A stretch of 57,251 bases of DNA, taken from positions 1-57,251 of IMG/VR virus record IMGVR_UViG_3300046468_000977; one strand, given 5' to 3'. The DNA comes from a virus. A program made the translations under genes and the position numbers. Below, one piece after another: positions 4,323 to 34,790 of the stretch; position 1 is the stretch's first letter, and each line of letters starts with the position of its first letter. The notes below the pieces were generated by a model. That model did not search any database and was not told the origin of the DNA. It was given only the letters and a program-made list of their open reading frames with translations.

Positions 4323-4337
4323 TTGTTTATAAAGTAA

Positions 4338-4373
4338 AGCGGGGGTGAAGGATTTTTATTCCCCACCCCCGCT
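4338..4373 (-). terminator. Intrinsic terminator downstream of the major capsid gene
   Basis: On the minus strand a GC-rich stem (agcgggggtg against caccccgct-type arms, with an inner ggga/tcc extension) lies 24 bases past the capsid stop codon. The following TTACTTTAT is only moderately T-rich, so partial read-through into the next gene is plausible. Confidence 0.6.
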
Positions 4374-4396: not shown

Positions 4397-5776
4397 TTAA
4401 ACTTTAGCGACATCGGCTGCTGCTGCATCGCGCTTGAAGATGACGACATAACCGAAGTCAGTTTTAATTGGCTTCGAAGCGGCTGCAAGAACACCACGGA
4501 AGAAACCTACGGTTCCGTCTGGGTTAGTTGTTTCGCTGAGGATGTTACTCCACTTGAAATCACCAGAGTAATTAACTGGGTTGAATGTCAAACCGTTAGA
4601 ACCACTGAATGGAGCAGGAATCTGAGACTCCATTACTTCAGGGTGGATAACGTAAGCTACCTCGTAAGGTGCGCTATCATAGTCACCATCTACTGAAGTA
4701 ACTCCTTTGACAACTTTGTAAGGCTCGACACGCTCAAGGAGTCCAGCACCACCCGCTGCGTCTTTGAAGCGTGGGGCAAGGTCATCAACCAAGTGGTAGA
4801 AACCACGGTATGAACGCTCAACACCAAGTGGGGCAACTAGTTCTCCAACCCGTGCGTTGTTATAACGGAGGTTGTCGCGGAACACTTCAGACTCAGTAAC
4901 AAGCTGATTAGATGCTTCCGAAGAGCAAACAAGTCCAAACACTGGGCGACCGTTTTCACGACCGTAAGCACCTTGAGAAGCTCCTTTGCGGATCAACTGG
5001 AAGTAGATCTTGTCGAGAAGAGCGTTCGAGATGTTTGCATTAATTGAGGACTCGGTTCCAGCATCAGCAGGACCAGTGTTAAATCCTCCAATTGTTGCGG
5101 TATCTTGACCTTCAACAGGCTTACTGTTAACAGTGGTGCTAAACGACGAAGAAGTTGTTTTACAAACAACAAAAGTTCCTGCAAGACGGTCAAACTCATC
5201 ACGATAACGCTGCTCCCAAATATGACGGGTAGCTTCAGACAACGTGTCAATAACAGCGCGAAGTTGCTCTTGGCGGTGTGCTGCGTAACGAAGGTCATCA
5301 ACGCTGATGCGTGGTGACTCGACAATTGAACGCTCAATACTATACGCCTTGAGTTGCTTACTGAAGTTAACGAAGTTACGACGATCTCCAGAAGTCGCCA
5401 ATCCGGCTGCTCCTGCATCGTTACCCGGACCATTTGGTCCCTGAACTTGATCGGCAGCGTCTGTAAGTTGCTGATCGGTCTGAGAAACGCCAAATGCATT
5501 TGCGGCAGTGTTGAGACCACCTACGGAATCCCATCGGACTCCTTGCGCGGTTCCTTCTTCATCAGTCGTAGGGACTGAACGATCATAGATCAAAGTGGTA
5601 AGTTGATATCCCATTCCTTCTGGGAAAGTTGATTTCTTAACAAGGTCAATCCAAGGAGAGGTGTGCATCATACGCTGATGGACATCTGCTCCAATTCGGT
5701 TTGCTTCCTCGGTGAGGATTGTGTTAATTGCGTTTGCGCTTCCTCCAAGGAAGTCGTTTGCATGTGGGTCTCTCAT
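4397..5776 (-). CDS. Major capsid protein
   Basis: 459 residues with no signal, membrane or enzymatic motif. Its size and position directly after the acidic scaffold gene match a phage major capsid protein of the HK97-like fold. The N-terminal helical segment (IGADVHQRMMHTSPWIDLVKKS) resembles head proteins of uncultured podoviruses. It is the only gene here with its own promoter, a long structured leader and a downstream terminator, as expected of the most highly expressed virion gene. No Shine-Dalgarno is seen at the ATG, which is preceded by an A/T-rich stretch. Confidence 0.75.
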   Translation of the reverse strand: MRDPHANDFLGGSANAINTILTEEANRIGADVHQRMMHTSPWIDLVKKSTFPEGMGYQLTTLIYDRSVPTTDEEGTAQGVRWDSVGGLNTAANAFGVSQTDQQLTDAADQVQGPNGPGNDAGAAGLATSGDRRNFVNFSKQLKAYSIERSIVESPRISVDDLRYAAHRQEQLRAVIDTLSEATRHIWEQRYRDEFDRLAGTFVVCKTTSSSFSTTVNSKPVEGQDTATIGGFNTGPADAGTESSINANISNALLDKIYFQLIRKGASQGAYGRENGRPVFGLVCSSEASNQLVTESEVFRDNLRYNNARVGELVAPLGVERSYRGFYHLVDDLAPRFKDAAGGAGLLERVEPYKVVKGVTSVDGDYDSAPYEVAYVIHPEVMESQIPAPFSGSNGLTFNPVNYSGDFKWSNILSETTNPDGTVGFFRGVLAAASKPIKTDFGYVVIFKRDAAAADVAKV

Positions 5777-5973
5777 AATAAATAATAAGTAAGGGTGTTA
5801 ATAGAAATGCCTCCTCGTCGTGAGGGACACAATTGTTTTAGTATCTGTAAACCGCACTTAGAACTAGTTAAAGGTTAGAGCAACCTATGCGGGTTCGACG
5901 AGTCGTAGCTCAATCTTTTAAGACCAACTCATTAGAACTATTTATGTGGCTAGAGCAACCAAGTTAGAACTTA
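5777..5973 (-). ncRNA. Structured 5' leader of the capsid mRNA, two tandem copies of one motif
   Basis: About 196 bases with no ORF. Core A (5858-5885) and core B (5932-5960) share TTAGAACTA followed after 6-7 bases by a small hairpin, plus-strand sense ggttagagcaacc and ggctagagcaacc. Each core is closed by a different stem: 5850-5856 with 5888-5895 for A, and 5924-5929 with 5962-5967 for B. Copy A is enclosed by a further 7-bp stem, ctcgtcg at 5814-5820 with cgacgag at 5896-5902. Similar cores in different stems point to selection on RNA structure. It matches no RNA family I can name. Confidence 0.55.
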
Positions 5974-5998
5974 GGCGTAGAATAATTTAACCTAAGTT
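5968..5998. promoter_or_regulatory. 8-bp inverted repeat overlapping the capsid promoter
   Basis: aacttagg (5968-5975) and cctaagtt (5991-5998) form a perfect 8-bp inverted repeat whose arms flank the -10 box and span the predicted transcription start. It could be an operator. It could also be a weak terminator stem for the scaffold gene, but no T-run follows it. Confidence 0.4.
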
Positions 5999-6007
5999 AT
6001 ATGTCAA
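5979..6007 (-). promoter_or_regulatory. Promoter of the major capsid gene
   Basis: Read on the minus strand: TTGACA (6007-6002), a 17-base spacer, TATTCT (5984-5979). It starts nine bases beyond the scaffold stop codon. Transcription would begin near 5972, just before the first structured element of the leader. Confidence 0.6.
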
Positions 6008-24340: not shown

Positions 24341-24561
24341 TAGCCCATACGCTTCTCAACATTATCAGCAAAGGAAGTGCGGCTAGGTTTGGCCGCTTTC
24401 TTTTTTGCTGCTTTCTTCTTAGCCGTTTTCTTCTTGGCTGGTTTGCTGTGTCCGTATTTCATTTTCTTTAGTTTGAGATGTTGCTCGTATGTCTTAGCTA
24501 ATACTGCCTCCCCCGTTTTGGGGTTATACATATTATGTGGTTTGAATTCTTCTTTCTTCAT
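24337..24561 (-). CDS. Small protein with histone H1-like KKAAKKK tail
   Basis: 74 residues. A tail of AKKKTAKKKAAKKKAAK repeats, like bacterial histone-like or HU tails, follows an N-terminal part with HNMYNPKTGE. DNA binding or DNA compaction in the head is plausible. It starts inside the stop codon of the giant gene (TAATG), so it is probably co-translated with it. Confidence 0.6.
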   Translation of the reverse strand: MKKEEFKPHNMYNPKTGEAVLAKTYEQHLKLKKMKYGHSKPAKKKTAKKKAAKKKAAKPSRTSFADNVEKRMGY

Positions 24562-27500
24562 TAGTTTATCCTGATTCGTTTGTTTGTGTAGTTTTCCCGT
24601 ATGTGCTGCTTTAAGTATTTAACTCTGGCTTTGCCTATGTCAGATTGATTGGCTCTATCAATAGCCCCCTTGTTGATGGAAGGCCGCATCATGTATCCCG
24701 CCTTATTCATCTTGAGTTGTAGTGAACCAAATCCTTTTGCCTTGGCTTGCCTCTCGATGTCTTTCTTTGGGATGCCCAATCCTATGAAGCCGTTAACTAC
24801 TTTGTAGTAGTCTGAGTTTTGCTTCTTGCCAAGGTTGACCATATCGTCATAAGCATCTGCTAGTTTCTCAAGAGGAACACTACCCTCGTCAGTAAGAAGG
24901 TTATCAATCCTCCGTTTGTTAGCAGTGTATTGGGATTTATGTTTAGACATAAACCGTTTCATCCCCTTGTCTAGGTCAAGCTGATATGGTTTGATGGGTA
25001 GAATTTCTTTAAGGAGTGGACCCCAAGCAGATCCTTCGAACATCTTATCAACTTTATCGCCGTTCATAATTCGATAAGAATCGGCAACAGCTCCGGCAGT
25101 TCTTGGCAGGAATGCATCCGAGAGGAGCGTCCCAGTTTTCTTGAACTCTCCCCATAGTCCTTCACCATCGAGGACTTGATCATTACCATACTCATCTTCA
25201 TTGACGATATATCTGTATACTGCCCCAGCAAGTATCTGGCTTTTCATGTAAGGCTTAATGAGACCTTCTTCTGGTCCGAGAAGGGAACTCATTGTCTCGT
25301 AAACCCCCTTACCTCCTATTAGATTTTCCATCGACCTAAGTATGGGGTCTTGAATAATCGCAAATGGGTTGAGGTAAGTTAAGTCCACCGTGTAAAATAT
25401 ACCATCGCTATCCTTGAATACGGAAAGGCTATTTCCTGCGGCCCAGTCTGGGAGCATCGCCCTCAAAGCAGACTCCTCATCTTCGCTATCGAACAACCCG
25501 AAGAGGAGGGAAGCAGTTCCTTTAGTTGTAGCAAGTGTTCCAGCCGTGGTTACCATCAACCCCCTTGCTCGCTTCCAACCCCGCTTTTTAATCTCTGGGT
25601 TATCGTCGTTAATCTCTTTAAAGATTCTTGCTACTCCGTTAGCGTAAACCCTTGGGACATCCGCTGCGAAACGAACATATGGTGCAGCAACTAAAGCAAG
25701 TGTAGACTTGTTGAAGTCTTTAACTAGAGGAACCGCCCTGCTGTATGACTGTGCTGTATCCTTAACTATTGCTGCCGCTTTAGATTTCATAGCGGAGGTA
25801 GGGTTACCATCAGAATCCAAGAGTTTAGCGTATTCCCCAGTGGGGTTGTTGTTATCTATCTCCGCTTGCGCTGCCCTTTTTAAGTAACCTAATTCAAACT
25901 CATACAAACCTATTTTAAAGAATCCATCAGCGGCAGATGCTAACCTACCACCTAAAGCTAGTAGTTTATCATTAACATCTTTAACGCTCTTATATGATTT
26001 AACTCCAAGAGAAGCTAACTTTAATTTGTCCTCCTCAGTTAGTTTAGATCCAACAGCTTTGAGTTTATTCAAAAGCTTAGATACTTTTTCTGAATCACGT
26101 TTAAGATCTTCAAACTTTTTAGAACCATCTAGTAACTCTTGAATTGCAGATACTTCGAGTTCGTCTCCAAAAACGTCCATGCTTTTTAACTCAAGCAGTT
26201 CGAAGTTGAACTCAGCTCGTGAACCTTTTGCTGCACGAACCATCAAGGATTCTTCAGCAAGCTTTCCACTATCCATCAGCCCTACTTTTTGTAGCACTGA
26301 TGATCCCATACCCGCAAATTCTTTAGCGAGTAAAACATTGCCACCATAATAACCTTGCATGGGTCCGAAGTAGAGAGCGTTACCAATCATGTTTCTGAAG
26401 TAGAAACCAACGGAACCTAGAGTTTTCATAGCCAAAGAATAGCCTGTTGCTTTCTTAGCAAAATTCTCTGCTGCACTTCGCACCACTGCGTGTTGATCCT
26501 TCTCATCAATGATGTCCTTTTCATCGGCGAACATTGATCTTAGGTTGCTATGAACTTCGGCAGGAACATACATCCCTTTGATTGGTGTGAGGTCTGAATC
26601 ACCTGTGTCTGCTTTTATCTCAACCCAATCAGAATACTTTTGTTGTTCAACAGGCATCTTCTGGTCAGCTTCATACTGTTGTTGAGTAACCAACCAAGGA
26701 GTATTACTCGTGGTTCCAAGCTCTTTAATTTTGTTGAAGAAAGATTGGTTAGACAATGCAGTCGCAGTGTGAATCATAGACGCACCCAAGTTAGTTATGC
26801 CTTGTTCTTCTTTATACTCACCCAACAGTTCTCTTATAGGCTCAGGTATATTCTGTTTCTCTTTTATATCTCCAATTATATTACTGAGAACCCCGCTATC
26901 AAAACCACCATCAGGCATCTCAATCTGTGGACCGGATGCTCCGTTCTTAATCTGAAGTTTTCTTCGGGTTTCTGATTTGGAGTAGCTCTTAATAAAATCC
27001 TGAACGAGTTGTCTACCCACACTCATCATCTTAGGATCTTTGTTTACAATATCATCTTCGATTTTCTGTCTAGCGTCTTGGCGATTCAAACCAGTCTTCG
27101 CCATAATCTCATCTAACCTACTGAGAGCTTCTTGTCTGGCAAAGTAAACAGCACCCTTCTCCCGCTGTTCGTGGTAAGTGTCATCTTTTAAATCAGATAT
27201 TCTACTGCTGAAGTTGTTGTCCTCAAACATACGATATCTCCTTGTGAAGTAGATACCTTTATTAAAGTGGAAAGACATTTTCAAATCATCAGGGTCCATC
27301 GTCCCTTTGAAAACATCCATTGCTTTCTTTGACAGTTGGTCTTGAATCTTCCGCATGTCTGTTACGATTGCGAATAGGTCTGGTGATTGTCTAAGTAACG
27401 CTTCGAGGGCATTGTCGCGACGAGCTATCTGCTGCTTGCGATTGTCTTCTCTCATTGCGAGTATGCTATTGCTCTTCGACTTCTCGGCGGCAGCTAAAGC

Positions 27501-30500
27501 GGCGGTCTTTTCACTTCCAGTTAAGGTCTCCGCTTTTTTAACAGCGTTTAAAAATTCTCCTTGGACTATATTTGATTGATCGTCTGTGAGTTGAGTTCCC
27601 ATATTAGAACCAGATGCGATAGCAAATAGTTTTGGGGGAAATTTGAACTCTCTCCCTAGTGCTTCAGATATTCTAGCTTCCTCTCGTTTGAGAGTATCAT
27701 CAAATTTACTTTGGAAATCTTCGACGAGTCCTTTGGTCTCTCTAATGAAAGCTTTGTTCTGGTTGAAAAACTCCACCACCCTACGGTCACCCCTACGTTT
27801 AAACAATTTGATCATTGCTTTTTTGAAACCGCCACCTTCACCAGTTGATATGTCGTAGTCATGAAGCTCCATCAGCGGAACATCAAGAAGGTCTAACCAG
27901 TTTCCAATATCTCCTTCTGGCATTTTGCCTGTTGTTCTCAGATGATCAGGTATCAAAGAATCGTCAGCGAATGTATCGTCGGGATCACCAGAAGATACTT
28001 GTTCACTAATTACAGGAACTTCTGGTAACTTATTTATATCCCCTTCTGGAACCAGTGTGTTTGAACTAATCGCTTGTGATAGTAGGATGTTAACTACTTC
28101 GTCAGGGTTGCGTGGGTTGTGCGTTATTGAACTCGGTGCTGGGGCGTAACCCATTTCCATCGCCCTGATCTCACGGATAATATTATTAACTCCGTTCTTC
28201 ATCTCAGGTGAGATGTCTTTAATTGTCTTGTGGTAAGTAAGCTTTGTTACAAGGACTTTAAAGAATTTGATGAAGGTGGGAATAAGTGTCGGGTTAGTCG
28301 ATAGAAAAGCAACTTGCTCATTAGTAGTCTCTCCTTTAAGAGCTTTACTAGCGTGACTCACCATAGATTTAGTAGCGAGTCGTGCTTTCTCGGCAGCTTG
28401 AACCGCTGGGTCAGGACTGTTCAACCTATCAAATGATTGTTCCTGTTGGTCTAGTGGTATGGTATCTTCAATGACTGCTTCGAGGTCAGCCCTAGACATA
28501 GCTCCAGCTATATCCGCTAACTGCTTATCAGTAATCATTTGGATAGCTGCCGACTGTCCAATCTGCTCGTTGAGCATACTGGCTAGGATGTGTGTTCTCC
28601 TGTTAGGGTCTATGTTTTGATCTGATACTAACTGGGAAAGTTTAATCGCCGCTAGTCTTGGGTTCAGTATAATAGAACCTGTTCGTTCATCTACCTTCGC
28701 GACTTCATCACTCAACGTATCAACAACTAGATTAAGTTCGTCGGGGACATACCCCCTAGCCCAAGAAGTGTAATCATCTGCGGCTTTCTCAAGTCTAGCT
28801 TGATCAACATTAGCACCACCACCATCTTCGACCATAGCACTAAGCTCGCTATTAGTTTGAGATACAGTATTTGTAACTTGATTCCTGAATCCTGATTCTG
28901 TTTCAGGTTCCCTTAGTCCTCGACCAGTGAGGTCTAGTGCAAGTTCCATTGCATCTTGGACATGAGTCTCGACAGCTTTGTAGTTAGCTAGTCCTGCCTT
29001 ACCTGTTAATCTACCGAAGAGTCTTACTATGGAATTAACAAATTCAGATAGTCCACCTTTGTATTCTCCTTTGGGTGGTATGTAACCGAGTAGCTTTTGT
29101 TGGAAGTCACTTGATGTGAGGATGTATGCGACGAACTCTTGAAGGTTCGATGTCGCATGCTTCATGTGCTTATCGTATTCGTTCCTAGCCTTAGCCTTGT
29201 TAATTACTAACTTGTTAAGTCTACGTAGTTTAGAGATCGCCTCATTCTGTCCTTTAGTTCTGGCTGCGGCTGGTCTCTTAATGATAGCAATAGTGAATGC
29301 GTGGACATATTCATGGACCAAGGTTTCACCAATGCCCCTACCACCCTTGCGGCTTGGGTTAATGGTTACGTTATCTCGGCCATCAATCCCGACAAAATGC
29401 CCACCTGCATATTTCTTAACACTCGAAATAATAGAGAAGTCTACTTCATTAAGGATGAAATCTTTGTCTAAGAGTAGTAGCTTCGCCACTTCTTTTAAGG
29501 GCGCATACTTCTTAGGTGACCCAGAAGCAATCTTCTCAAGAACAGCAACCACTGATTCAGGACTGTTGCCCACAAGCCCCAGTGATTCTAATTCTTTTTT
29601 ATTATCCTTTAGGTTCTTTAGTCTACTCTTGGCGTCTACAATCTCATCAGCCATGTGGAAAGACATGCTCTCAGAAAGGTTGTCAAAGAAACCTATGGCT
29701 TGATCATCGGTAAGCTCGACCCCACCAAGTAGTGATTGTATTTCTTCTTTAACTGAGGCAGCGAATTCAGGGTCTCTACGAATCCCTTTATGAATCGTGC
29801 CAAATGATAGTCCCAGCATCCTGATCGACTTACTTAAATCAGGACCAAAGTCATAATCGTTTGAGTTCTCTAAGCTATAGATAAAGAAGGCAGATTCCTG
29901 ATCAGTGTAGACTGTGCCATCAGCTAACAGTTTAGCGAAGTCTCTGAACAATTGGTCTGTGTTGTAGTTGCTGGCGATGCCATCCCCATCGGGGAAGTTA
30001 TGCTTATTAACAATCTCTACAACTTTTTCCCTTAGTTTTACATCCGTATCCAATGACGCCTTAGCATTAGCACTATGCTTAGAAATGAAATCATAGGTGT
30101 GATACTTACGGAGTTCAGGTATCGCTTGTTTAGTATTGGGATATTTCTCTGCTTTGTTATCAATCTCCGCTTCAATAGAAGCTTTGACATCCTCAGACAA
30201 ATTAGCAGATGTCCCAACGATGGATGCCATCGCCTTACGCGCGTTGTCTCTGCGAATTTTGTATCGAGATAGGAAAGAGTTCCTAGTCTCCGCTACTATC
30301 TCAGCGAGGTTGAAGGGTGTGTTGCCAACAGATTCGCCAGCTTCAATCTTCTGAGAATACTCATAGATCTTTAGTTTAAGCTTTGCCCTCAACACAACTT
30401 CGGCTGAAGAAACAAAGTCCTCAGTCATTTCGTTTTCACCTAGCTTCCTTCTATTCTGGCCCTCTATTTTTGGAATAGGCTGCTGAATCAGATTTGCTAA

Positions 30501-33500
30501 TGGCCCATCCAACTCTTGGAGTAGGGCGGGGAGTGTGACCTTGCGGAAGTTATTACCCTCTATCTTGCTTAGTGGGGCGTTAACTAAAACATCAGAGTTT
30601 AGTGTGTGGGTGGTGGTGGCAGCATCGAGTTCCGTAATTAATTTTTTAAGCGGACCCCAATCAGGCAGAAGACTTCTCACTTCATTGAACCTAACCAAGC
30701 CTGAGTAAGTTCCCCCAGCGTGGGGTATTCTTATGTCGCTTAGGAAATATTCACCACTCCCTTCCGAAGTCTCTGTAATCCTGAAAGATGGGTTAAGACC
30801 ACTGTCTTCCATCGCGTAGGCAGCATCAACAGGCACATAAAAACCATTGTGTAAAAGCGTCAGCATACTTTCGGGATCGTTATTAAATATCCCTTGCTGT
30901 TTATCATTGATGAAAACCTTTCTACCTTTGTTCTTCTCAGCGAAAGTATTGGGTAATTCAAAGTTACCTTTGCGCTCTACCCTCTTCACTGGGTATTTCT
31001 TTTTGATTTCCGTCCTTAAATTATCGGCTGCTTCTTTTAGATATGTAGCATCTGTTTTTTCTAATCGCAATCCTAGCTCTTCAAAATGCTCTTCAATAAA
31101 ACTAACAGGATATCCCTTATCGATTAGCTTACTCACAGCGAGCTTATCGCCCTCTGATAAAGTTACTCTCTTCTTGGATGGGTTTACTTCTTCGATGTAG
31201 TCTTTTTTAGCAAGTTCTCTGCGCTTGTTCGCCTCTTCAGGCTCCAACATTCTTTTACTAGCCAACCCATTCTTCAGTTCCCTTTCAAGAATCCTATACC
31301 TATCAGTATTACTATCGATGGCACGAAGATCATCAGTAGCCTTTTTAAATCTCTCTTCCATTTTGTTAATGGCGAGGAGTCTTTTCCTATACGTTTGTTC
31401 AGGGCTATTGTTCTTCTGTTCGTGCGGGTGACCTGATCCGAGGCTGGATTTGTCACGTAACTTTGCACTTACTGGTTTGCCGGACGCATCGAGTATTTCA
31501 TTGATGCTTTTGCTAGATCCAATTTCGGGATTAATTCTCGCCCCGACCACCATATCAGACTCACTTGTGAATCTTTTTTTGTTTTCTGCTTTAGTTTGAG
31601 CTAAGGCTATGCCCAACTCTCGCTCGAACTCCTTGAGTCTTTCTGATTTAAGGTTGCCAAGAGTCTTTGACATCTCCTTGGCTTCTTGATCAGACGCAGC
31701 ATCTTCCGCAGCTTCGGCTTGATCAGAAAATTCCTCTTCAATTCTAGCAGCGTTTTCCGCTTGTGCTTCAGCCGAAAGATTCTCAGGATTTATGTTCGCA
31801 ATAAATTTAGAAGCAGCTTCTTGTTCTGGTGTTACTACTGAATTTTCTTCTGAAGAAGCGGCATCAAAATCTTTAGCAAGTTTTTTAATGTCCTCGAAAC
31901 TTTTGCCAGCTAGTAATCCTTCTGTGGCTGGGGTGAAATTAGATTCACTACCAAAGTCTTTCTCGATTTGAGCGAGAGATTCGGCAGTTTGTGGTGCTAA
32001 TGCTTGGAGTTCTTTCCTCTTCTTAACTAGCTCGGGGTTTGCTGCGACCTTCGCATTGAAGTCAGTTAAAATATCAGACTCTAACTGCTGCATCGCATCC
32101 CTATCGACGGCGGCTCCTCTAGTTAAAGGGTTGTTACGAACAATACCGCCAACGACAGGCGCACCCGCACCCATTGCTGCGCCCATTAAAGCACCCATAA
32201 AGGCACCTTCTATGCGCTCACGGAAAGAAGTGTTCTGATCCGCAAAAGCATCGATGGTTATACTCTGGATAAATTCATCAAGCCCCTCTTCAAATGCTTC
32301 ACCACCTACACTTTGCAGACCCCTACTTAAAGCCCCACCCATTGATTCTCTTATCTTGGTCTTTACTGATCCTTCAATAACTTTTCTGAATGCGGCGTCA
32401 GTAGATTCCCTTCCGATAATTCTATCTGTAGCGATCTTGAGTTGTTTTAAGCTAACTCCTTTCAGGTAAGCGTTCTCAATACCACCAAAATTCAAACCCT
32501 TGTATGTTATAGAACCTAACCCCGCTGTTATTAAACCTGTGGTGGCCCCTTGAACAAGTGCGCCTTTAACAGATTGAGTGTGCGCCTCTGCTCTAACTCT
32601 ATCGGCGTCCCAACCAGAATGCCAATTCCCTTCAGAATCCTTATGCTTGTTGTTAAGGTCATCAGTAATTGTGGTGAATATACTGCTGTATGTTAAAGAC
32701 CCCGACCTCGCTGCGGCTGGTATGAAAGTAGCTGAGAATATATTTAAATTCTTGGCAACAGAACTGTTAAACATATTAACAGCCCCCATAACTTGTTCTG
32801 CTGTAGCGTCAGGACCAAGAGTTCCCGCTTTTAGTATTCTATCTACTACAGTATCACTACTTTCTTTTACTAACTCACCAGAAAGGTTTCTCGTCACTTT
32901 CTGTTTGAGAGCGTTGGTAAATGTAGCATTCAGAAACGTCTTAGCTACAGTAGATTTGGTTATGCCGTTGGTGGTTAACTGTTTAACAGTCCCAGCCGTA
33001 GCCGTTGAACCAACTAAACTTTTGGCAGCTTTCTTCGCAGCGGTCTTAGCAGCAAAGTATGTCCCCGCACCCACTGCCGTTGCACCCCCAGTTGCTGGTG
33101 TGAGTAGGCCAGCGCCTATAGTTATTAATCCATCAACAATCATTGGAGCTGCTTGTTCTCCTAAGTCTTGCATGAATCCCATCTCCACTCCGAAGATTCC
33201 TGCCATAGCCCTGTTATGAGCTATTTCCTTCGCGTTGTTTACGAGTCCATCTTGCCCCCACTCAGCACCGAACATAGCTCCAGCACCATACATAAGTGTA
33301 GTAAAACTATGCTTAACACTAGTAGCTAATCCCTCAGTCCTGAAGTTGGGGTCATAATCTTCTACAAATTTTTCCACTATCTGGTTGTTGGAAAGATTAT
33401 TCCACTTCCCTTCCATCAGTGCTTTCTGCCATTCGTCTTTATATTCATCATCGTTACTAAGAGTATCATCAACACTTAGAAAGTTGGACTCATTCAAGCT

Positions 33501-34790
33501 TTCCCTTTTAACATTCTGTAATTTGATTTCTTCTTCAGACAAACCAGCTTCGACTAAAGCCCTATTAAATTCTTCAGGTTTGAAATTTAATTCTTGTGAA
33601 ATAATAACGCCATTAAATTCTGTCTTAACCACGTTCTCCGATAATTCATCTTCATCATATAGAAGAGTTGCCCCTCTACCTTGACTATCCTCAAAAGACA
33701 TCGCCTTTACTGTGTCGCGAACAGCGGAAGAAACCACATCACGGTCATGTCCAGTCTTACCTACTAAGTATTCAATTAAGTCTTCTTGAGTTTTGTCTAT
33801 GTTTTCCTCATGGGACTCCATGAGTTCTTCAAACTCCTGTTGTTCTTTTACTTGGTCAAACTCTTCGTCATCAAATGAAAGCCAGTTCCACCCTTTCTTT
33901 ATGGTTTGGCCAAGATCTCCCAAAGCATCTCCAACATTATCGATGGCAGTGTCCATCGCATCCCAAGATCTTTTCTTACCAAAGTCTCTCCGTAACGCTT
34001 CAAATCTAGCCGCGACAGATTCATCATATAAACCCCCATCTTCGTCTATAAGACTTTGAAGGATTCCAGAAGCTTTGATGCGTTCATCGACTTCATACTG
34101 CATCAAGTTGTAGTCAGCAGATTCAGGACTGTAACCCGACCGCACCGTCCCCTTAACTCTCTTCCTGAAATTATTTAAGTTAATTAAATCTTCAGCCCTT
34201 ACCCCATACTGTTTACTTTCAAGGATTACATCTTCCGCTGTTTTCCCATCTGGGATTCTACCCCCTAAAAATACTTTATTACCCTTAGCGTTTACGTATG
34301 CCGCCGCATTGATTGTCCCTTTCTCGTAAAGAGAGTTGAGAGTTTCTTCTTTCTTTTGACGAACACTTTCAACTACTGAGTCAGGGTCTAACCCATCTGG
34401 GAATTCTGTTTCCTGCTCAACACTAGCTAAGTAGTCAGATATATTATTGCTCTCTTCTAAGCTAAATCCTGTGTTGGCTTCGCCGAACTCTTCGACAAAT
34501 TTAATGTCGTCTTCAAAAGTAGAAGATCTGAACGAGTTAAGTTCATCAACAGCCTGTTGTTGATTCTCTTGTGTTACAATCCCCTTTTGTTGTAGGGTGT
34601 CGAGGAGTGCTGAATCGAGGGATTCTCCTACCTCCTTATTAAACTGTCCCGCTTTTAGATACTCGTCTTTTACATCGTCGATATAACGACTGTAACTTTC
34701 AAGTGGGTTTTCATAGGTGTTGCGGCTAGACCACTCTGAATATGGGGTCTCTTTAATTGTGGGCGTGTTCGTGTCGCTTTGGTCTGTCAT
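24561..34790 (-). CDS. Giant virion-type protein (3,409 residues) with a HEYVH metallopeptidase motif
   Basis: One uninterrupted frame of 3,409 residues. It has a helical N-terminus and Gly/Ala-rich, membrane-active-looking segments near 548-580 and 858-887. A zinc-peptidase motif H1826-E-Y-V-H1830 sits in ETLVHEYVHAF. Helical C-terminal regions include GFYFRNMIGNALYFG (~2792-2806) and LVAAPYVRFAADV (~3028-3040). Large internal virion or polyvalent proteins of podoviruses and crAss-like phages combine such parts and enter the host with the DNA. No lytic transglycosylase or RNA polymerase motif was seen. Two probable internal virion genes lie directly upstream. Confidence 0.7.
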   Translation of the reverse strand: MTDQSDTNTPTIKETPYSEWSSRNTYENPLESYSRYIDDVKDEYLKAGQFNKEVGESLDSALLDTLQQKGIVTQENQQQAVDELNSFRSSTFEDDIKFVEEFGEANTGFSLEESNNISDYLASVEQETEFPDGLDPDSVVESVRQKKEETLNSLYEKGTINAAAYVNAKGNKVFLGGRIPDGKTAEDVILESKQYGVRAEDLINLNNFRKRVKGTVRSGYSPESADYNLMQYEVDERIKASGILQSLIDEDGGLYDESVAARFEALRRDFGKKRSWDAMDTAIDNVGDALGDLGQTIKKGWNWLSFDDEEFDQVKEQQEFEELMESHEENIDKTQEDLIEYLVGKTGHDRDVVSSAVRDTVKAMSFEDSQGRGATLLYDEDELSENVVKTEFNGVIISQELNFKPEEFNRALVEAGLSEEEIKLQNVKRESLNESNFLSVDDTLSNDDEYKDEWQKALMEGKWNNLSNNQIVEKFVEDYDPNFRTEGLATSVKHSFTTLMYGAGAMFGAEWGQDGLVNNAKEIAHNRAMAGIFGVEMGFMQDLGEQAAPMIVDGLITIGAGLLTPATGGATAVGAGTYFAAKTAAKKAAKSLVGSTATAGTVKQLTTNGITKSTVAKTFLNATFTNALKQKVTRNLSGELVKESSDTVVDRILKAGTLGPDATAEQVMGAVNMFNSSVAKNLNIFSATFIPAAARSGSLTYSSIFTTITDDLNNKHKDSEGNWHSGWDADRVRAEAHTQSVKGALVQGATTGLITAGLGSITYKGLNFGGIENAYLKGVSLKQLKIATDRIIGRESTDAAFRKVIEGSVKTKIRESMGGALSRGLQSVGGEAFEEGLDEFIQSITIDAFADQNTSFRERIEGAFMGALMGAAMGAGAPVVGGIVRNNPLTRGAAVDRDAMQQLESDILTDFNAKVAANPELVKKRKELQALAPQTAESLAQIEKDFGSESNFTPATEGLLAGKSFEDIKKLAKDFDAASSEENSVVTPEQEAASKFIANINPENLSAEAQAENAARIEEEFSDQAEAAEDAASDQEAKEMSKTLGNLKSERLKEFERELGIALAQTKAENKKRFTSESDMVVGARINPEIGSSKSINEILDASGKPVSAKLRDKSSLGSGHPHEQKNNSPEQTYRKRLLAINKMEERFKKATDDLRAIDSNTDRYRILERELKNGLASKRMLEPEEANKRRELAKKDYIEEVNPSKKRVTLSEGDKLAVSKLIDKGYPVSFIEEHFEELGLRLEKTDATYLKEAADNLRTEIKKKYPVKRVERKGNFELPNTFAEKNKGRKVFINDKQQGIFNNDPESMLTLLHNGFYVPVDAAYAMEDSGLNPSFRITETSEGSGEYFLSDIRIPHAGGTYSGLVRFNEVRSLLPDWGPLKKLITELDAATTTHTLNSDVLVNAPLSKIEGNNFRKVTLPALLQELDGPLANLIQQPIPKIEGQNRRKLGENEMTEDFVSSAEVVLRAKLKLKIYEYSQKIEAGESVGNTPFNLAEIVAETRNSFLSRYKIRRDNARKAMASIVGTSANLSEDVKASIEAEIDNKAEKYPNTKQAIPELRKYHTYDFISKHSANAKASLDTDVKLREKVVEIVNKHNFPDGDGIASNYNTDQLFRDFAKLLADGTVYTDQESAFFIYSLENSNDYDFGPDLSKSIRMLGLSFGTIHKGIRRDPEFAASVKEEIQSLLGGVELTDDQAIGFFDNLSESMSFHMADEIVDAKSRLKNLKDNKKELESLGLVGNSPESVVAVLEKIASGSPKKYAPLKEVAKLLLLDKDFILNEVDFSIISSVKKYAGGHFVGIDGRDNVTINPSRKGGRGIGETLVHEYVHAFTIAIIKRPAAARTKGQNEAISKLRRLNKLVINKAKARNEYDKHMKHATSNLQEFVAYILTSSDFQQKLLGYIPPKGEYKGGLSEFVNSIVRLFGRLTGKAGLANYKAVETHVQDAMELALDLTGRGLREPETESGFRNQVTNTVSQTNSELSAMVEDGGGANVDQARLEKAADDYTSWARGYVPDELNLVVDTLSDEVAKVDERTGSIILNPRLAAIKLSQLVSDQNIDPNRRTHILASMLNEQIGQSAAIQMITDKQLADIAGAMSRADLEAVIEDTIPLDQQEQSFDRLNSPDPAVQAAEKARLATKSMVSHASKALKGETTNEQVAFLSTNPTLIPTFIKFFKVLVTKLTYHKTIKDISPEMKNGVNNIIREIRAMEMGYAPAPSSITHNPRNPDEVVNILLSQAISSNTLVPEGDINKLPEVPVISEQVSSGDPDDTFADDSLIPDHLRTTGKMPEGDIGNWLDLLDVPLMELHDYDISTGEGGGFKKAMIKLFKRRGDRRVVEFFNQNKAFIRETKGLVEDFQSKFDDTLKREEARISEALGREFKFPPKLFAIASGSNMGTQLTDDQSNIVQGEFLNAVKKAETLTGSEKTAALAAAEKSKSNSILAMREDNRKQQIARRDNALEALLRQSPDLFAIVTDMRKIQDQLSKKAMDVFKGTMDPDDLKMSFHFNKGIYFTRRYRMFEDNNFSSRISDLKDDTYHEQREKGAVYFARQEALSRLDEIMAKTGLNRQDARQKIEDDIVNKDPKMMSVGRQLVQDFIKSYSKSETRRKLQIKNGASGPQIEMPDGGFDSGVLSNIIGDIKEKQNIPEPIRELLGEYKEEQGITNLGASMIHTATALSNQSFFNKIKELGTTSNTPWLVTQQQYEADQKMPVEQQKYSDWVEIKADTGDSDLTPIKGMYVPAEVHSNLRSMFADEKDIIDEKDQHAVVRSAAENFAKKATGYSLAMKTLGSVGFYFRNMIGNALYFGPMQGYYGGNVLLAKEFAGMGSSVLQKVGLMDSGKLAEESLMVRAAKGSRAEFNFELLELKSMDVFGDELEVSAIQELLDGSKKFEDLKRDSEKVSKLLNKLKAVGSKLTEEDKLKLASLGVKSYKSVKDVNDKLLALGGRLASAADGFFKIGLYEFELGYLKRAAQAEIDNNNPTGEYAKLLDSDGNPTSAMKSKAAAIVKDTAQSYSRAVPLVKDFNKSTLALVAAPYVRFAADVPRVYANGVARIFKEINDDNPEIKKRGWKRARGLMVTTAGTLATTKGTASLLFGLFDSEDEESALRAMLPDWAAGNSLSVFKDSDGIFYTVDLTYLNPFAIIQDPILRSMENLIGGKGVYETMSSLLGPEEGLIKPYMKSQILAGAVYRYIVNEDEYGNDQVLDGEGLWGEFKKTGTLLSDAFLPRTAGAVADSYRIMNGDKVDKMFEGSAWGPLLKEILPIKPYQLDLDKGMKRFMSKHKSQYTANKRRIDNLLTDEGSVPLEKLADAYDDMVNLGKKQNSDYYKVVNGFIGLGIPKKDIERQAKAKGFGSLQLKMNKAGYMMRPSINKGAIDRANQSDIGKARVKYLKQHIRENYTNKRIRIN

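Follow-up and report, generated by a model that had tools for sequence, protein, structure and literature searches.

The leader of gene 32 in phages T4, T2 and RB69 carries an H-type pseudoknot followed by an unstructured stretch before the AUG, and it is bound by the single-strand-binding protein that the gene encodes. The exonuclease-resistant RNAs (xrRNAs) of flaviviruses and plant viruses are compact pseudoknots, placed in tandem in some viruses, which stop 5'-3' exonucleases, and one of them was shown to stop the bacterial RNase J1. They are known from eukaryotic RNA viruses, and in the flaviviral ones the 5' end threads a ring built on a three-way junction. The put RNA of HK022 is a structured RNA made after a phage promoter, acting in cis to suppress pausing and termination of RNA polymerase in early genes. 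Finally, 5'-terminal stem-loops that stabilise bacterial mRNAs are simple hairpins without conserved sequence, which lengthen the life of the message.

Here we describe small cis-acting pseudoknots that make up one RNA family and stand on the capsid mRNA in a large, uncultured group of tailed phages. Like the gene 32 element, they are H-type and belong to the leader of a phage gene, 5' of an unstructured stretch that reaches the AUG; however, the gene here encodes a capsid protein, no ligand is known, and an outer stem (P1) closes each of the two copies at the predicted 5' end of the mRNA. They share the pseudoknotted and tandem form with xrRNAs, but P1 here encloses the pseudoknot partner, and the message that begins with the element is of bacterial type; nuclease resistance is untested, and Rfam gave no homology to a described xrRNA class. 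Like put, the element follows a phage promoter, but what comes next is a short capsid unit and then a terminator. Sequestration of the 5' end, as by the stabilising stem-loops, is proposed here too, although with a conserved pseudoknot core in two copies. The element was not reported in the literature that we searched on phage leader pseudoknots, capsid mRNA leaders and bacterial xrRNAs, subscription papers and preprints being excluded.

The capsid leader and its predicted transcription unit

The window, that is the whole stretch of DNA analysed, is 57,251 nt long (IMG/VR record IMGVR_UViG_3300046468_000977, positions 1-57,251). The leader lies between the ORFs 7194-6016 and 5776-4397, and since both are on the minus strand the mRNA is the minus strand. 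Minus-strand folding of the leader (6015-5777) gave -58.4 kcal/mol, with a z-score of -2.73 against shuffled sequences, while the plus strand showed no excess folding (z 0.19). Two sequences, TTAGAACTA and GG(T/C)TAGAGCAACC, are repeated in the window at a distance of 74-75 nt, and the former (mRNA UAGUUCUAA) contains the 3' strand of the pseudoknot helix. The features, all on the minus strand, are as follows, S1 and S2 being the two helices of each pseudoknot and L1 and L3 its loops.

5979-6007, minus: sigma-70-like promoter, TTGACA at 6007-6002, 17-nt spacer, TATTCT at 5984-5979; 10/12 consensus matches
near 5972, minus: predicted +1, from the promoter position
5919-5973, minus: pseudoknot copy 1 with outer stem P1 (covariance model R1, 46.6 bits, E 8.9e-9); as mRNA CUAACUU-GGU-U-GCUCUA-GCC-ACAUAAA-UAGUUC-UAAU-GAGUUGG
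copy 1 P1, minus: CUAACUU 5967-5961 with GAGUUGG 5930-5924, extended by UAAG 5973-5970 with CUUA 5922-5919 (duplex computation)
5935-5960, minus: copy 1 core (sequence and covariation)
copy 1 S1, minus: GGU 5960-5958 with GCC 5950-5948 (sequence and covariation)
copy 1 loops, minus: L1, U5957; L3, ACAUAAA 5947-5941 (sequence)
copy 1 S2, minus: GCUCUA 5956-5951 with UAGUUC 5940-5935 (G-C, C.U, U.U, C-G, U-A, A-U)
5845-5898, minus: pseudoknot copy 2 with outer stem P1 (covariance model R1, 40.1 bits, E 3.3e-7); as mRNA CCGCAU-A-GGU-U-GCUCUA-ACC-UUUAAC-UAGUUC-UAA-GUGCGG
copy 2 P1, minus: CCGCAU 5892-5887 with GUGCGG 5857-5852 (duplex computation)
5861-5885, minus: copy 2 core (sequence and covariation)
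copy 2 S1, minus: GGU 5885-5883 with ACC 5875-5873 (sequence and covariation)
copy 2 loops, minus: L1, U5882; L3, UUUAAC 5872-5867 (sequence)
copy 2 S2, minus: GCUCUA 5881-5876 with UAGUUC 5866-5861 (sequence and covariation)
5807-5830, minus: third leader hairpin, GUGUCCCUC-ACGAC-GAGG(A)GGCAU
5777-5806, minus: unstructured A/C/U-rich stretch without Shine-Dalgarno (SD) motif, reaching the capsid AUG
4397-5776, minus: major capsid protein gene, HK97-type fold (AF2 model and Foldseek)
4331-4373, minus: terminator-like hairpin, AGCGGGGGUG...CACCCCCGCU, then UUACUUU, just past the capsid stop codon

Searches with the capsid, portal or TerL protein in PHROGs, Pfam, INPHARED (tblastn) and PDB profiles gave only a weak TerL profile match. 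As the capsid had no sequence match in these libraries, its identity rested on the fold. The AF2 model is a modest one (pTM 0.64, mean pLDDT 59.7); its best Foldseek matches were capsids of N4-like phages and cyanopodophages in the PDB (E 1.3e-6) and viral major capsid proteins in BFVD (E 8.2e-9), and an HK97-type major capsid protein is supported by this predicted fold.

An equivalent promoter arrangement is present in relatives. In 62 leaders the predicted start falls at a median of 11 nt before the core (10-90%: 8-15), matching the start of P1; these sites are predicted rather than mapped, with spacers of 16-19 allowed and an error of a few nt. Terminators were found upstream in 13 of 32 relatives and within 250 nt downstream of the capsid gene in 14, and in none within the leader. 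Their positions, together with the gene's own promoter, make the capsid look like a separate short transcript, whose promoter and terminator are supported and whose transcription start is inferred. In L042, L044, L048 and L058 we observed, shortly 5' of copy 1, a terminator hairpin (AGGGGGTTGACAACAACCCCCTTTTTT) with the -35 box TTGACA at its centre, a stretch which may possibly both end the upstream transcript and start that of the capsid.

The third hairpin is retained in the close relative L041, while many relatives have hairpins of different sequence and some have none. Most leaders have an unstructured stretch ahead of the AUG. An SD-like motif precedes only 5 of 30 window genes and none was seen at the capsid, which might point to a host with little SD use. 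Many gene starts in the window are preceded by A/C/U-rich sequence.

Pseudoknot architecture and covariation

Comparison with relatives showed that each core, on the minus (mRNA) strand, is an H-type pseudoknot within an outer stem. The unit can be written P1-[GGU U GCUCUx GCC L3 yAGUUC UA]-P1', where the loop bases CUx pair with yAG. Indeed, two bases varied together among the first relatives, one preceding GCC and the other preceding AGUUC (A/U, G/C, C/G, U/A), a pattern that identified the pseudoknot. S1 consists of 3 bp, GG[U/C] with [G/A]CC, followed by a loop of 1-2 nt, and S2 pairs GCUabc with c'b'a'UUC, its three inner pairs covarying while two pyrimidine mismatches (C.U, U.U) stay constant. 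The two helices abut, with zero bases between them on the inner side. P1 is of variable sequence, none of it conserved among copies. In the L051 clade both copies have GUU with UCC, a change of C.U to U.C, suggesting that the mismatched bases are opposed and that S2 is a six-step helix with two pyrimidine mismatches; this six-step form is inferred.

To count the x:y pair, related contigs were searched with a pattern that left this pairing free, which gave 86 non-redundant copies. The pair was Watson-Crick in 85, covering all four types (75 A-U, 8 G-C, 1 C-G and 1 U-A), and the sole exception was C with U. Position 3 of S1 was U.G, U-A, C-G or G-C and never unpaired, the U.G pairs being possible only on the mRNA strand, and in the second copy of L041 S1 is altered to GAG/CUC. 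In one alignment (A1), 99.3% of the cells were paired and 12 carried double changes, the few unpaired cells including one misaligned row; none of 500 shuffles reached the observed pairing on any measure, and shifting the partners abolished the signal. For P1, the duplex formed with a copy's own flanks had a mean of -9.19 kcal/mol, against -4.03 +/- 0.23 with swapped flanks (minimum -4.96 kcal/mol in 10,000 permutations), and it was weaker on the opposite strand (-7.93). Compensatory changes are thus found in all three helices.

A search with a more distant capsid protein led to a second clade, whose leaders lack the strict pattern but keep the layout GG[CU]-NN-GCUabc-N-[GA]CC-L3-c'b'a'UUC, frequently with an extra hairpin in L3. 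GCU and UUC are constant (G-C, C.U, U.U), and the inner triplets change in a compensatory way (CCA/UGG, CCG/CGG, UCG/CGA, UUG/CAA, CUG/CAG); as the search itself required pairing, these triplets are an illustration and not an independent test. In a third clade (L074, L084, L065), the form is GACCU-GCCAGU-AGGUC-N-ACUG(C)GC, in which S2 can pair fully, and S1 and S2 also vary in a compensatory manner.

Two side observations concern these leaders. The third form of the pseudoknot, as seen in L074, L077, L084 and L065, reads GACCU-GCCAGU-AGGUC-UGAAAU-ACUGCGC, with compensatory changes between members. The leaders L251-L293 (for example L254, L263 and L267) have another pseudoknot-like element 3' of the first pseudoknot, with hairpins GUCGC/GCGAC, AUCGC/GCGAU, GUUGC/GCAAC and GUCGU/ACGAC. 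The hairpin loop, GCUUC, matches a GAAGC that lies about 16-23 nt 5' of the hairpin; it is possible that this element takes the place of copy 2 in that clade.

An earlier note, made from sequence alone, had proposed two cores at 5858-5885 and 5932-5960 with shared sequence and equal spacing, outer stems that differ between the copies, and selection on RNA shape. All of this held, the coordinates unchanged and the covariation found in relatives extending to the three helices. Its small hairpin and the shared TTAGAACTA held only in part, both belonging to a single H-type pseudoknot that had been overlooked. A 7-bp stem wrapping the pseudoknot nearest the capsid start (5814-5820 with 5896-5902) was not supported: the complement is perfect in the window and is not conserved, L041 having CTCATCG against ATACGAG, and it competes with the hairpin 5830-5807, which L041 retains.

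Distribution of the element

A strict pattern built from the two window copies matched 38 IMG/VR stretches, and the paired copies close to a capsid gene that could be identified were in its leader, so the repeat is not due to chance. In the first protein search, 44 of the 53 capsid leaders with a located start had the pattern. The covariance model found two adjacent copies in 39 of 40 main-clade genomes, with no other match there at E 0.05; the remaining genome (the contig of L043) had one model match and a divergent second copy, visible as L264. In these 40 genomes the copies directly precede the capsid gene in every case and occur at no other site. Nine relatives outside the main clade gave no covariance-model match.

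A pattern scan of 84,980 bacterial and archaeal genomes (257 Gb) gave 73 matches. The paired tandem form occurred in only 5 contigs, all of them phage loci encoding this capsid. The other 68 look like chance, with no tandem, no capsid and x:y mostly unpaired. In four whole MAGs the model matched only phage contigs. These MAGs are labelled Opitutae, Verrucomicrobiales, Blastopirellula and Acidimicrobiaceae, a mere hint at possible hosts among Verrucomicrobia or Planctomycetes, as binning of phage contigs is unreliable; class-wide capsid searches, made in two bacterial classes, were of no help in finding the host. Rfam 15 had no match in the whole window at gathering cut-offs. With E up to 10, the leader gave only a chance miRNA match on the plus strand (E 1.6, far below cut-off) and its mRNA strand nothing at all.

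In summary, the pseudoknot, P1, the tandem copies, the strict capsid linkage and the strand are shown by comparison, and the RNA structure and the capsid association, taken jointly, are very likely to the point of near certainty. The placement in the capsid mRNA leader, as the earlier note had it, held through the exclusive linkage in 40 genomes, with capsid identity by fold, and the further copies it had suggested searching for by covariance model proved to be the tandem pair of each main-clade genome, in the capsid leader only. That note had left the function among translation, stability and packaging; the anatomy favours mRNA stability or translation, neither of which has been shown.

Possible functions of the leader

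Our leading reading, to which we give a probability of roughly 0.42 and which is hence tentative, is that the folded 5' end shields the capsid mRNA from 5'-end-dependent decay; this function is inferred, and mRNA half-life is untested. The first P1 would take in the transcript's own 5' end, leaving the primary end not single-stranded, and the two compact knots would be barriers to decay enzymes that initiate at 5' ends, either through RppH and RNase E tethering or through a 5'-3' exonuclease such as RNase J. Combined with the 3' terminator hairpin, they would give a long-lived capsid mRNA, and ribosomes could still enter without an SD motif at the unfolded stretch before the AUG. Four features taken together favour this reading: the location at the predicted start of the mRNA, the presence of two copies, a knot that is closed, and a transcript devoted to the capsid. 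The predicted +1 lies at the start of P1, and in many relatives the promoter is preceded, or the gene followed, by a terminator. RppH and RNase E require single-stranded 5' ends, and 5' structure stabilises mRNA (PMC3997798); moreover, knotted viral RNA can stop bacterial RNase J1 (PMC5760640).

Several points speak against protection. The host RNases are unidentified, and there are no half-life, start-site or probing data for these phages. Since a plain hairpin would also do as a 5' shield, the constancy of the core (GCU...UUCUA) suggests that something recognises it or that its three-dimensional fold is demanding. Sequestration of the 5' end alone does not explain a second copy about 75 nt downstream, and the element is found only at the capsid gene, though other late genes are presumably well expressed.

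A bolder form of the protection reading, which is possible and no more, is that of a new RNA class: a P1-sealed pseudoknot with fixed pyrimidine-pyrimidine mismatches would serve as a nuclease-resistant 5' end in bacteria. It would have arisen independently of the xrRNAs of eukaryotic viruses, and a widespread phage family would employ it in tandem on its capsid mRNA. The element combines very strong covariation with two copies per genome in dozens of uncultured genomes and a tie to a single gene, that of the capsid, and it is a small module, directly testable in laboratory reporters. If protection is true, it would be a phage counterpart of the viral exonuclease-resistant RNAs and a portable mRNA stabiliser.

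The main rival, a translational operator, remains possible. Here the capsid protein or a single-strand-binding protein would bind the pseudoknots and spread over the A/U/C-rich stretch to the AUG, and by analogy with gp32 on T4 gene 32 mRNA an excess of protein would shut off capsid synthesis. In T4 the ribosome binding site is covered by an A+U-rich stretch, UUAA(A), which is unstructured and follows the gp32-binding pseudoknot (PMC3014915). The pseudoknots here are likewise followed by a stretch without structure, and several relatives, L092 among them, have UUAAC repeats in it. Fixed core bases would suit specific recognition; that only one gene is regulated also speaks for an operator. However, there are no binding data, the second core starts 69-146 nt from the AUG, often with another hairpin between, neither two copies nor coupling to the mRNA start would be necessary, and the UUAA repeats are not general.

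A translation enhancer is unlikely. In a host with few SD sites, the pseudoknots would bring the ribosome in or set its position, or else hold the part of the leader downstream of them in single-stranded form; the scarcity of SD-like motifs, also lacking at the capsid, and the mostly unstructured pre-AUG stretch speak for this. Yet other non-SD genes of the same phage are without the element, and its distance to the AUG varies by more than 70 nt.

Very unlikely is a put-like antiterminator, in which the nascent RNA would bind RNA polymerase so that terminators are ignored. Structured cis-acting elements directly after a promoter would fit, as in HK022 put (PMC9378689), but none of the 32 leaders has an intrinsic terminator between element and capsid start, terminators soon after the capsid gene are found in the 14 relatives and also in the window, and for so short a unit antitermination would be counter-productive. 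We give just as little weight to a riboswitch, or a ligand-binding RNA of another sort, in host or phage metabolism. The compact pseudoknot with invariant mismatched positions speaks for it, and some known riboswitches are of this size; against it, the mRNA strand has no Rfam match at E 10, and no copy was found ahead of a metabolic gene, only of capsid genes (in the 257 Gb cellular scan, the 5 tandem contigs are phage capsid loci). A DNA-level element, such as a packaging or protein-binding site, or mere conservation among close relatives would account for the conserved spacing and core sequence, but is all but excluded by the compensatory double changes, the swapped-flank test, U.G pairs valid on the mRNA strand only and a location linked to the predicted transcription start.

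Elsewhere in the window, a single 3409-aa ORF (24561-34790, minus strand), with no PHROG match in the scanned part, possibly encodes a virion-borne multidomain protein. The region 126-1710 is highly repetitive, with long overlapping ORFs on both strands, and may be the gene of a repetitive tail or fibre protein.
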